The notes below the pieces were generated by a model. That model did not search any database. It was not told the origin of the DNA and worked only from the letters and a program-made list of their open reading frames with translations. A stretch of 46,341 bases of DNA from Vulcanimicrobiota bacterium. Lineage in GTDB: Bacteria; Vulcanimicrobiota; Vulcanimicrobiia; Vulcanimicrobiales; Vulcanimicrobiaceae. Of this stretch, positions 10,428-13,656 are shown in pieces (position 1 is the stretch's first letter; every line of letters begins with the position of its first letter). The position numbers and the translations under genes were made by a program. The stretch spans positions 1-46,341 of the forward strand of contig JAFAXE010000136.1 of the NCBI GenBank assembly GCA_019241305.1, in the 5' to 3' direction.

Positions 10428-11396
10428 CTAATACGGCAGGCCGGGTGGTGATGCGGGACTGGCCGCGACCCCGGCGTAGGCGCCGCTCGGTATCGCGATG
10501 CGCTGTTGCGGACGCGTATCGGGTCCTGGATATGCCCAACGCTGGAGCTGGCCGCTTCCCGTATCCTCGATGAACGCATGACGCTCATCTCTATCGAGTG
10601 CAATGGCAAACGGGTCGATATCTTTGGTCGCAAAGGCGTCCGTCATCGTCGTGGAGCCGGGGGCGAAATCACCGCAGGCGGGCAACGCTTGATCGCAAAT
10701 GAGCAACGCTCCGGTGCTCGTCGTCTGAATTCCACCAGGTGCCTGGAGCGTGATGCCCAGGTTCATCGCGGTGCCGCTCCCGCCGATCCACTCATCGACG
10801 CCTCCGACACCGGTCGGTCCGTTGGTGTGCAGGAAGGTGACGTAAAGATTGCCCTGGTCATCGAGCGCATCGTAGAACGCGTAGGTCATGTAGGGGTCGG
10901 TGAGCGTCGAGGTCGGCGTCGTGCTGCCGTGCGCGTACACTTCGATGGCACCGGGTTGGCTGTTACCCTGCACGAAATTCGAGACGTACGCGGTGTTTGT
11001 GCGATCGTTCACCGCCACATCGACCGGTGAACCGACGGTATCTTGCAGCGTCTTGATCGGCGTCGGATTTCCCGGTGCAAATTCGTACACGGCGTGCGCC
11101 GCTTGATCCGCAACCCAAAGGTTTCGGTGGCGGTCAACAAAGATGCCCTGCGGGTTCTTGAAACCCGTAACGGAACCGCACGGCATCTTCGCATTGTGCT
11201 CCTGGTCGTACATGTAAATGGAAAGATCGTACGAAACGGCGTACACGATGCGTTTCGAGCAGGCCGACGTGGTTTGTCGCGGCACCGCGCGCAAGGTCGA
11301 TACACGCAGCGAGCGGCTCGACCAAGCAGGGAGCACGAAAAGCGCGATGGCGGCCACGGTTCCGATTGAAGCCGCGGAGAAACGACGAGCAACCAT
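10428..11396 (-). CDS. Secreted NHL/SMP-30-like beta-propeller protein
   Basis: The 322-residue product has a signal peptide (MVARRFSAASIGTVAAIALFVLP) followed by repeated propeller blades. These include the blade-like sequences PQGIFVDRHRNLWVADQ, SPVDVAVNDRTNTAYVSNF and GAIEVYAHGSTTPTSTLTDP. Such GSTTP-type propellers are abundant in uncultured soil phyla such as Eremiobacterota, where their function is unknown. ATG 11396 is well supported by GGAGG eight bases upstream; the frame stays open for 57 further codons that look non-coding. The region 11397-11642 separates it from the divergent LuxR-type gene. It may bind a surface ligand or polymer; no catalytic residues can be pointed to. Confidence 0.82.
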   Translation of the reverse strand: MVARRFSAASIGTVAAIALFVLPAWSSRSLRVSTLRAVPRQTTSACSKRIVYAVSYDLSIYMYDQEHNAKMPCGSVTGFKNPQGIFVDRHRNLWVADQAAHAVYEFAPGNPTPIKTLQDTVGSPVDVAVNDRTNTAYVSNFVQGNSQPGAIEVYAHGSTTPTSTLTDPYMTYAFYDALDDQGNLYVTFLHTNGPTGVGGVDEWIGGSGTAMNLGITLQAPGGIQTTSTGALLICDQALPACGDFAPGSTTMTDAFATKDIDPFAIALDRDERHAFIEDTGSGQLQRWAYPGPDTRPQQRIAIPSGAYAGVAASPASPPGLPY

Positions 11397-11555
11397 GACA
11401 AAGACCTCCGGGACGTGAGGATAGCGAAAGACGACGCGACGAAAAGCGCCGGAGCCGTCCAAAACCCTTGTGCGACGATCCTCCGAAGCCACCCTACCGT
11501 CCGCCCACATGAAGCGCGAGCAGGGGGCTGGCAACGCTGGACCAAAACGGGCCAT

Positions 11556-11580
11556 CCCGCGCTGCACCGATAGGCGCGGG
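11556..11580. promoter_or_regulatory. Inverted repeat in the divergent intergenic region
   Basis: CCCGCGC, an 11-base spacer and GCGCGGG form perfect 7-bp arms between the propeller gene (minus) and the LuxR-type gene (plus). A second, weaker pair (ACCGC-acgga-GCGGT) lies at 11605-11619, just before the LuxR-type gene. Either could be an operator or a 5'-UTR hairpin; in such GC-rich DNA chance is also possible. Confidence 0.3.
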
Positions 11581-11642: not shown

Positions 11643-13208
11643 GTGAACCTTGAAACTCAGCGCGCTTCACACGGCCACGCGTTATCGGCGCAGCGGACAG
11701 AAGCGTTGCAGGCCTACCTCGAGGCGGACTACCAGCGAGCCCTCGATCGGCTACGCGCCGTCCCCGAAGGCAAACGGTGGACCGAAGACCACATTTTGGA
11801 AGCCCGCATTCTCCTTCGGTTAGGGGACGCCGCCCGATCAGGCACGGTCGCCGCCGTGGCACAAGACACGGCAGCATCGGTCGACGAGCGCGTCCTCGCG
11901 AGAGCGCTCCTCGCCGCCGCGCTCGACCGTGATGGACGGTCAGGCCACGCTGCCGCCGCGTTTCGGGAGGCGCGTGCCGAGGCGCCTAAGGCCCATCGAA
12001 CGATTCGCGCCGAGCTGGGATACTTCGAAGCGGTCTCCTCCTGGTCGAGCGGCGACCTCGCGCGCGCCGGACGGCTCGTCGAGAGCGCACTGAAGGATGC
12101 TGACGACGTCGTCCGTGCGCTCTTGTTGCAGTTGCGTGGTTGGATCGAGATCCGCCGCGAACGCTATACGCAAGCGGCTGAACACTTTGATGCGGCGCTG
12201 TGTGCTTCGCAACGATCGCGTTACCGTGATGTCCGCCTCGAAGCTCGGCTGATCCATGCGTTGTCCGTCATCGCGACGGAAACGATCGACGTACCACTAG
12301 CAAGCCGCGTCGACGAGCTCGCAACGGCGTTCTCGTGGAATGACGGCGTCGCTCGGGAACGTTTCAATACGACGACGTGCCGCCGGTTCGCGGCCCTTTT
12401 GCGTGGAGAGATGCAGGAGGCGTATCGCCTAGGACTGCTCGCCATCGAGCTCGCGCCTACCGCGGCGTTCTCTGCGATCGCTCATACCAACCACGCCGCA
12501 TTGCTGCGCTTCGTTGGCGACAACTTCTCGTCGCGCTATCACTTCGGTATTGCGCGACGGCGCATCGCCGAAACGCACTGGTCCGTCGCGGACGTCGAAG
12601 AACATGTCGCGCTTGCAAACTATGCCATCGAGGCCGCACCGGCGGATCCTGCAAGCGCGGCACAGGCGCTCACGATCTATCGTTCGGTGTCGGCCTTCTT
12701 AAAGCGTGACCTTGCCCTCGAGCGCGATCGGCGGACGGAGGGTTTTGGTGACTTTGCCGAGGGACGCGTCGCCGAGGCGCTCGGCGATGCAGAGCGCGCG
12801 CTCGATTCGTACGACCGTTCTTTGCGGTGCTGGTCTGCGCTGGGCTATCGGATGCGCGCCGCGATCGTCGCGCTCGACGTTGCTCGTCTTTCGCCCGACC
12901 ATCGCAGTCCTCGAGAGACGGCGGCAGCGCTCGAACGTGCGCCGCATGCATGGTTCGCGAAGTATACCACCGCCCCGCCACCTTCCGGCCGAGTGCCGCA
13001 TCTCACCAAAGCGCAGAGGCGCGTCTTCTCGCATCTCCTTGCGGGCAAAGCCTCAAAGGAAATCGCGCGAGCCCTCGGCCGCAGCGATTACACGATCCGC
13101 AATCAGACAAAATGCATCTTTCGGGCCTTCGACGTGCGAAGCCGGGCCGCACTCCTCGTTCGCTGTCAGCGGGAGGGTATCACCGCTGACGACGCCGACG
13201 ACGGTTAG
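11643..13208 (+). CDS. TPR-containing LuxR-family transcriptional regulator
   Basis: The 521-residue cytosolic protein consists of helical TPR-like repeats over about residues 15-440 (for example ALQAYLEADYQRALDRL, LRGWIEIRRERYTQAAEHF and AEALGDAERALDSYDRSL). A LuxR/GerE helix-turn-helix at about 452-515 follows (HLTKAQRRVFSHLLAGKA, then SKEIARALGRSDYTIRNQ). There is no N-terminal ATPase (no Walker A), so it is not a full MalT/LAL regulator, and no receiver domain is present. The TPR array probably senses a peptide or protein partner. GTG 11643 is preceded by ACGGAG with good spacing. Its stop overlaps the stop of the convergent SISGGGPA repeat gene by two bases. Control of neighbouring exported proteins is inference from position only. 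Confidence 0.85.
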   Translation: MNLETQRASHGHALSAQRTEALQAYLEADYQRALDRLRAVPEGKRWTEDHILEARILLRLGDAARSGTVAAVAQDTAASVDERVLARALLAAALDRDGRSGHAAAAFREARAEAPKAHRTIRAELGYFEAVSSWSSGDLARAGRLVESALKDADDVVRALLLQLRGWIEIRRERYTQAAEHFDAALCASQRSRYRDVRLEARLIHALSVIATETIDVPLASRVDELATAFSWNDGVARERFNTTTCRRFAALLRGEMQEAYRLGLLAIELAPTAAFSAIAHTNHAALLRFVGDNFSSRYHFGIARRRIAETHWSVADVEEHVALANYAIEAAPADPASAAQALTIYRSVSAFLKRDLALERDRRTEGFGDFAEGRVAEALGDAERALDSYDRSLRCWSALGYRMRAAIVALDVARLSPDHRSPRETAAALERAPHAWFAKYTTAPPPSGRVPHLTKAQRRVFSHLLAGKASKEIARALGRSDYTIRNQTKCIFRAFDVRSRAALLVRCQREGITADDADDG

Positions 13209-13423
13209 ACTGGGCCGCCGCCGCTAATCGAGGCCGGGCCGCCGCCGCTAATCGAGGCCGGACCGCCGCCACTGATCGAGGCTGGGCCGCCGCCACTAAT
13301 CGAGGCCGGGCCCCCGCCGCTGATCGAGGCTGGGCCGCCGCCGCTAATTGAGGCCGGGCCGCCTCCACTGATCGAGGCCACGTGTACTCCCAAAGCGAGA
13401 AGCAACGCAAGCAAAAGCGACAT
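13205..13423 (-). CDS. 72-residue exported protein of seven SISGGGPA repeats
   Basis: The product is a 16-residue hydrophobic N-terminus (MSLLLALLLALGVHVA) followed by seven 8-residue units SISGGGPA, the last ending in V. It contains no lysine, arginine, aspartate or glutamate. ATG 13423 is preceded by a perfect AAGGAGG at ideal spacing; the frame also opens ten codons upstream, but without this support. The seven units share the peptide while their codons differ at 13 synonymous third positions, with one amino-acid change (the final A to V). That pattern is strong evidence for a translated, selected peptide and argues against a simple DNA repeat. The N-terminus could be a signal or membrane anchor lacking the usual basic residues. 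I recognise no family. A structural or surface role, or a peptide precursor, are guesses. Confidence 0.75.
   Translation of the reverse strand: MSLLLALLLALGVHVASISGGGPASISGGGPASISGGGPASISGGGPASISGGGPASISGGGPASISGGGPV
13208..13375 (-). repeat. Seven tandem 24-bp coding repeats
   Basis: Seven uninterrupted 24-bp units in one frame encode S-I-S-G-G-G-P-A. Read on the minus strand, the commonest codons are TCG ATT AGC GGC GGC and then GGC CCG GCC. Five of the other units carry two or three third-position differences, and the last has one plus GTC in place of GCC. There are no spacers, so this is not a CRISPR array. Confidence 0.95.
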
Positions 13424-13446
13424 GAGATCCTCCTTGCCGGACGCTG

Positions 13447-13465
13447 CCGCCATGCCGCATGGCGG
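13447..13465. promoter_or_regulatory. 8-bp-arm palindrome upstream of the repeat protein gene
   Basis: CCGCCATG-CCG-CATGGCGG is a perfect inverted repeat starting 24 bases upstream of the SISGGGPA gene start and about 190 bases upstream of the divergent DUF5916-type gene. Position and symmetry suit a dimeric regulator or a 5'-UTR hairpin. No -35/-10 pair is obvious nearby. Bases 13466-13656 hold no other recognisable element. Confidence 0.4.
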
Positions 13466-13656
13466 GCAGGGTCAGTACTCAGCGATGGGACGTAGTTAAT
13501 CCTGGCTATATTGCCTCTGGCGTCAAGGCTTGGAAGCGAGCAGCAACCTTTTTGGCCGGAGGGCAGGCGAGCGTCTCTGCACGGCAAGCGAGAAACTGGC
13601 ATGCCTTCCGAAGTCGCCGTTGCTGCAGTTATCGGCGGTCAACCGTACATCAATCA

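Follow-up and report, generated by a model that had tools for sequence, protein, structure and literature searches.

Communication through gene-encoded peptides that are sensed by cytosolic TPR receptors is known so far from Firmicutes and their phages. The published signature of the RRNPP systems (Rap, Rgg, NprR, PlcR, PrgX, and also AimR) consists of a small exported propeptide of 10–100 aa and a TPR receptor of 250–500 aa, encoded by adjacent genes; the corresponding survey covered viruses and Firmicutes, and clusters with N-terminal TPRs were discarded from it (PMC10075063). Here, we describe a locus of comparable logic from a Vulcanimicrobiota bacterium of Candidatus Eremiobacterota, found in a 46,341-nucleotide stretch of contig JAFAXE010000136.1 (hereafter, the window). 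The cultured member of this phylum has a Gram-negative wall (PMC9758169). We believe that the locus encodes a secreted multi-copy precursor of a peptide signal together with its cognate one-component TPR–LuxR receptor, and would give this reading a probability of roughly three in four.

As in the RRNPP systems, a small leader-bearing precursor gene adjoins the gene for a cytosolic TPR receptor and transcription factor, and several differing pairs occur in one genome. The product of the window precursor gene (72 aa) falls within the propeptide range, the presence of TPRs in the receptor is indicated by profile matches to PDB chains, by a structural model and by Foldseek, and the two genes are direct neighbours, being convergent with a 4-bp overlap at the precursor stop; the linkage counts given below extend this to other loci. 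At the same time, RRNPP receptors consist of an N-terminal HTH followed by C-terminal TPRs, whereas the window receptor has its TPRs first and a LuxR/GerE HTH last, and its 521 aa lie outside the 250–500 aa range. Furthermore, the precursors of this family often carry several tandem copies of the peptide, and the hosts are of the Gram-negative type. With regard to the basic and then hydrophobic stretch by which RRNPP propeptides are Sec-exported, the comparison points both ways: the window leader is hydrophobic, with no Lys or Arg among its first seven residues. The reversed domain order, the unrelated HTH, the longer receptor and the diderm cells thus place the system outside RRNPP, despite its RRNPP-like logic.

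The precursor gene occupies positions 13205–13423 of the reverse strand (ATG at 13423–13421, TAA at 13205–13207), with an AAGGAGG ribosome-binding site (13429–13435, reverse strand) 5 nt ahead of the ATG. Its product has the layout MSLLLALLLALGVHVA-(SISGGGPA)6-SISGGGPV: an uncharged hydrophobic leader of 16 residues (13376–13423, reverse strand) is followed by seven peptide copies encoded by a tandem array of 24-bp units (13208–13375, reverse strand), and Lys, Arg, Asp and Glu are absent from the entire protein. TRF reported a single array of 7.0 copies × 24 bp at 13212–13379. A sequence-only reading of the same DNA had already given the position, strand, frame and sequence of this 72-aa repeat gene, along with the perfect ribosome-binding site, the hydrophobic start, the missing charged residues and the seven units ending in an A-to-V change, all of which we found to be as stated. 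It saw the repeat gene, but missed both the convergent TPR–LuxR partner and the wider set of such pairs within the order.

The proposed cognate receptor gene (11643–13208, forward strand) codes for a protein with a predicted N-terminal TPR superhelix and a C-terminal LuxR/GerE HTH. The matches to TPR domains were weak, and the HTH was placed at residues 452–506 (12996–13160, forward strand) by domain matches and the model. A profile built from 70 regulator homologues matched TPR and LuxR-HTH chains in the PDB, and the AlphaFold2 model (pLDDT 94.1, pTM 0.85) shows a continuous all-helical repeat superhelix followed by the HTH. With this model, Foldseek returned many TPR proteins, including NprR, a peptide quorum sensor of Bacillus (5dbk, E 3e-4, TM 0.57 by target). 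Such profile and model-based matches speak to the predicted fold of the receptor, not to its ligand. Regulators of the MalT/LAL type have an N-terminal ATPase domain, helical repeats and a C-terminal LuxR HTH. The window regulator shares with them the helical repeat domain and the HTH, but it has no ATPase domain (Pfam), its model is helical throughout, and the ligand that we propose is a peptide. Likewise, a LuxR-type HTH and an adjoining signal gene are reminiscent of the LuxI/LuxR acyl-homoserine-lactone systems; here, however, there is no autoinducer-binding domain (only the HTH and TPR-like matches were of note in Pfam), and the proposed signal is gene-encoded. The surroundings in the window include genes with Pfam matches to an NHL repeat, a DUF5916-like domain, a phosphoesterase and an M61 peptidase. 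The NHL-repeat protein gene (10428–11567, reverse strand) is divergent from the receptor gene and might be a target of the system.

At E ≤ 1e-25, 70 of the 103 order genomes contain the TPR–LuxR regulator, and a single genome may hold as many as 13 matches. In the rest of the phylum, a single genome had a match at E ≤ 1e-40, and it carries a GVSGGGPV precursor (L186). Named relatives come nearly all from Candidatus Eremiobacterota MAGs, many of them from palsa and other soils, with one record titled Rhodospirillales. No copy of the regulator turned up on plasmids, and viral contigs gave no match to a genus-level alignment of the regulator (A2); thus, these searches gave no evidence of the pair being carried by mobile elements.

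Searching the genome contigs with the 72-aa protein found no related loci, as the short repeats are too divergent for that search, and the repeat peptide belongs to no family in Pfam or NCBIfam. The peptide search of the order yielded three real relatives, judged by their build and position: SVSGGGPL/SVSGGGPA in genome G094, two copies of SVTGGSPD in G095, and MSLLLVLLISLGLAPSAAPD-NTVGGGPV...NTVGGGPV...NTVGGGPV*, beginning with MSLLLVLLISLGLAPSAAPDN, in G096. In each case, a homologue of the window regulator follows immediately downstream of the precursor. Out-of-frame repeats or stop codons in relatives, which the sequence-only reading had named as a refutation, did not occur. Other weak tblastn matches to the peptide, present in many genomes, were mostly out-of-frame or compositional and were set aside.

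More generally, the regulators often have at their flanks short leader-bearing ORFs, each with one or more copies, up to many, of a peptide resembling D/S-x-x-G-G-(G)-P. These include DSVGGGPP (several copies), VVGGGPTPAG (×9), SVGGGPPVNPT (a long array), DTPGGPIPI (×3), the DTSGGPM type (×3), YNGSGPPG (×3), the DVLNGGPS type (×3) and STHGGAVD (×7), while another family in the order has EGSHPPY (×3) and DGTLPPY (×2). The related precursors measure 38–203 aa, a few of them exceeding 100 aa, and numerous ones hold a single peptide. They lie mostly upstream of the regulator on the same strand; in a clade near the window receptor they are convergent, as in the window. Each of the three full-length-type TPR–LuxR genes in the window genome comes with a precursor of its own, and the three differ: SISGGGPA ×7, SIGGGGA/VFGGGHP/TLGGGPSP (1 bp upstream) and EGSLPGVSGG/EGSLTNLSGG. 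Among the functions offered by the sequence-only reading, a secreted peptide precursor fits these observations; a surface fibre does not, since the short peptides of the relatives range from a single copy to many and are linked to one regulator family. Overall, its interpretation is partly supported.

As we imagine it, the hydrophobic leader would bring the precursor to or through the inner membrane, and proteases would cut the tail at the repeats, liberating several peptides of about eight residues (SISGGGPA/V) from each precursor. The peptide would re-enter the cell, for instance through an oligopeptide ABC transporter, and bind to the adjacent regulator, in the concave groove of its TPR domain, altering, in one direction or the other, how the C-terminal LuxR domain binds DNA. 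Expression of the precursor gene, and perhaps of other genes, would then respond to peptide concentration, as a measure of cell density or in self-sensing. Export is the weak link of this mechanism. Sec signal peptides devoid of Lys or Arg near the start are unusual, and these residues are absent from the first seven positions of the window leader and of 37 of the 47 non-lipoprotein leaders. As for uptake, oligopeptide-binding proteins (PF00496) are encoded in 103 of 103 order genomes, with 14 in the window genome; being common in bacteria, they are permissive only.

The leaders also bear on the possibility that the precursor stays anchored as a membrane protein or lipoprotein, its exposed structural or stress-sensing tail controlling the regulator with no free peptide involved. 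A lipobox-like motif was detected in 28 of the 75 precursors, all 28 of which have Lys or Arg near the N-terminus, and the window leader might serve as a single membrane-spanning segment. Still, a cytoplasmic TPR–LuxR protein has no evident route to a periplasmic tail, and near-identical repeats, often ending exactly at the C-terminus, are better suited to release. We therefore regard an anchored sensor as improbable, although it fares better than the other alternatives.

Many identical short peptides are cut from one secreted precursor in the case of the yeast alpha-factor and of multi-core RiPPs. In a RiPP or bacteriocin reading, each repeat would be a core peptide, modified or antimicrobial, whose production the TPR–LuxR protein would merely regulate; a leader followed by repeated cores is indeed a known RiPP layout, and a regulator is nearby. 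A conserved tailoring enzyme, as in multi-core RiPP clusters, was found neither in the window nor among ten neighbours at ten loci, and these neighbours (DJ-1/PfpI, HAD hydrolase, aminotransferase, PLD, WhiA, integrase, RpoB and three with no Pfam match) revealed no dedicated exporter and no common function, leaving the regulator as the only constant neighbour. Many precursors, furthermore, contain just one peptide, and the type of peptide goes with the receptor. When 11 peptide classes, drawn by hand from the peptides, were placed on a FastTree tree of 118 receptors, 10 changes were needed, which is the minimum possible; 23 precursors that fit no class were left out. As one genome may contain many receptors (G096 is an example), this means that the peptide type follows the receptor lineage, not the genome. 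The tree shows a stable peptide–receptor pairing rather than specificity, and linkage together with common descent explains a part of the result. Hence, a RiPP precursor seems to us an unlikely explanation, ranking just after the anchored sensor, and the locus differs from the alpha-factor and RiPP cases in being bacterial, in having no modification genes found and in its TPR–LuxR receptor partner.

The window units differ from the consensus unit at 14 bases, and 13 of these differences are silent, the sole replacement being GCC to GTC in the final codon. The sequence-only reading counted the silent differences correctly but called them 13 third-codon positions; they are 13 deviating cells, spread over 7 third-position columns that vary. 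Random placement of the same base changes gave an expected mean of 5.5 silent differences, and 13 were reached in none of 20,000 draws. The silent pattern recurs in the (STHGGAVD)×7 array, where 19 of 19 base differences are silent, and in the VVGGGPTPAG ×9 array (13 of 14), which supports the earlier proposal of selection on the peptide unit. On the forward strand, an open antisense frame at 13212–13499, for which no start codon is listed, reads perfect (LIEAGPPP) repeats. As this frame shares the third positions, a point that the sequence-only reading missed, silent changes alone cannot identify the coding strand, and it is the ribosome-binding site, the start codon, the hydrophobic leader and the relatives of the same type that point to the reverse strand.

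The open, repeat-perfect antisense frame, and the fact that the array abuts the regulator gene, might be taken to mean that the repeat acts as DNA or RNA, either as iterons bound by the regulator or as a translational leader, and that its reading frame is incidental. The peptide is constant although the units vary at most third positions, in the window as in the unrelated (STHGGAVD)×7 array, and what the loci have in common is the peptide design, with a recurrent ribosome-binding site and leader, rather than the DNA; we consider an element of this sort very improbable.

The association of precursors and regulators was further assessed on 76 regulators that had been retrieved solely through their similarity to the regulator, with no reference to the peptide. 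Linkage was counted within 400 bp upstream or in convergent orientation, and control long ORFs were taken from 400 kb of the same genomes. A leader ORF with a GG(G)P-type motif accompanied 45 of the 76 regulators against 7 of 168 controls; the Fisher p of 3e-21 is too small, as same-genus loci are related and the motif pattern, applied equally to the controls, was written after the first loci had been seen. The motif-free test for an exact 5-mer repeat gave 22 of 76 against 3 of 168, with a p of 7e-10 that is likewise too small. Precursors were absent from all 14 loci with an HTH-only LuxR match, which came from genomes with no full-length match. Gly/Pro-rich repeats are common in GC-rich DNA, but a chance or neutral expansion unconnected to the regulator is contradicted by the linkage counts against same-genome controls, by the HTH-only loci and by the silent-only divergence, and is hardly credible. 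About 40% of the regulators had no detectable partner by the criteria used, including L047 and L093, the nearest relatives of the window receptor; a small-ORF search beside these two and beside L082, L071 and L089 gave no convincing precursor.

Promoter sequences add a further aspect to the signal–receptor reading. In the precursor promoters of genus g5, the 20-bp element GTACTAGTATATTCGTACTA varies little or not at all, while its flanks have diverged. Genome-wide, it occurs in 8 of the 9 g5 genomes, once in each, except for a second copy with 2 mismatches in G020. In 7 of the 9 genomes searched, it lies 46–58 bp upstream of the precursor start; in G025, the stretch that carries it is short and shows no precursor. 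The element's core GTACYAGTA, which belongs to a 10-bp palindrome, is seen again in a sister clade; it was found with 17 of 75 precursors, compared with 7 of 5320 control windows. A conserved element in this place suggests that the precursor gene may be a main target of its own regulator. The g5 element was not seen in the window. A perfect dyad, CCGCCATG-CGG-CATGGCGG (i.e., CCGCCATGCGGCATGGCGG), does lie just upstream of the precursor ribosome-binding site (13447–13465), and is the sole copy in the genome at up to 1 mismatch; that it is an operator, or else a hairpin, is a guess. Scans for sigma-70 promoters and terminators were uninformative.

In the literature searched, which included few subscription papers and preprints, neither TPR–LuxR peptide receptors nor pairs of this kind in Eremiobacterota are described. 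Apparently, then, a large family of peptide genes beside matching sensor-regulators has gone undescribed. We find it fairly probable that this is a diderm peptide-signalling family that evolved separately from RRNPP, with many pairs per genome, tandem precursors, TPRs followed by a C-terminal LuxR domain and promoter control by the precursor's own receptor. If so, peptide communication would extend to a diderm phylum of soils and peat with few cultured members, there would be a second architecture for peptide reception, and about 75 candidate peptide–receptor pairs would offer predicted signals ready for synthesis and testing. A repeat unit of the precursor points directly to the mature signal.

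Several loci deserve a separate comment. A cleaner array than that of the window is MLSVILAVAMALFGGAAM-(STHGGAVD)×7 in G065:C54 (L109:3003–3227, reverse strand), with a perfect set of 7 × 8 residues. At L049 (G101:C8), one receptor apparently lies between two different precursor genes, the upstream one reading ...DVGGGGPVT...DVGAGGPTP (partly masked) and the downstream one ...DTSGGPINH...DVGGGGGPINH. Finally, the g32 precursors (L121–L125, L216 and L220) are single-copy, and a conserved tail with cysteines, GGGPxxxCxExxCPDPTPTP, forms their end; the signal that they give may thus be of another kind than that of the repeat precursors.
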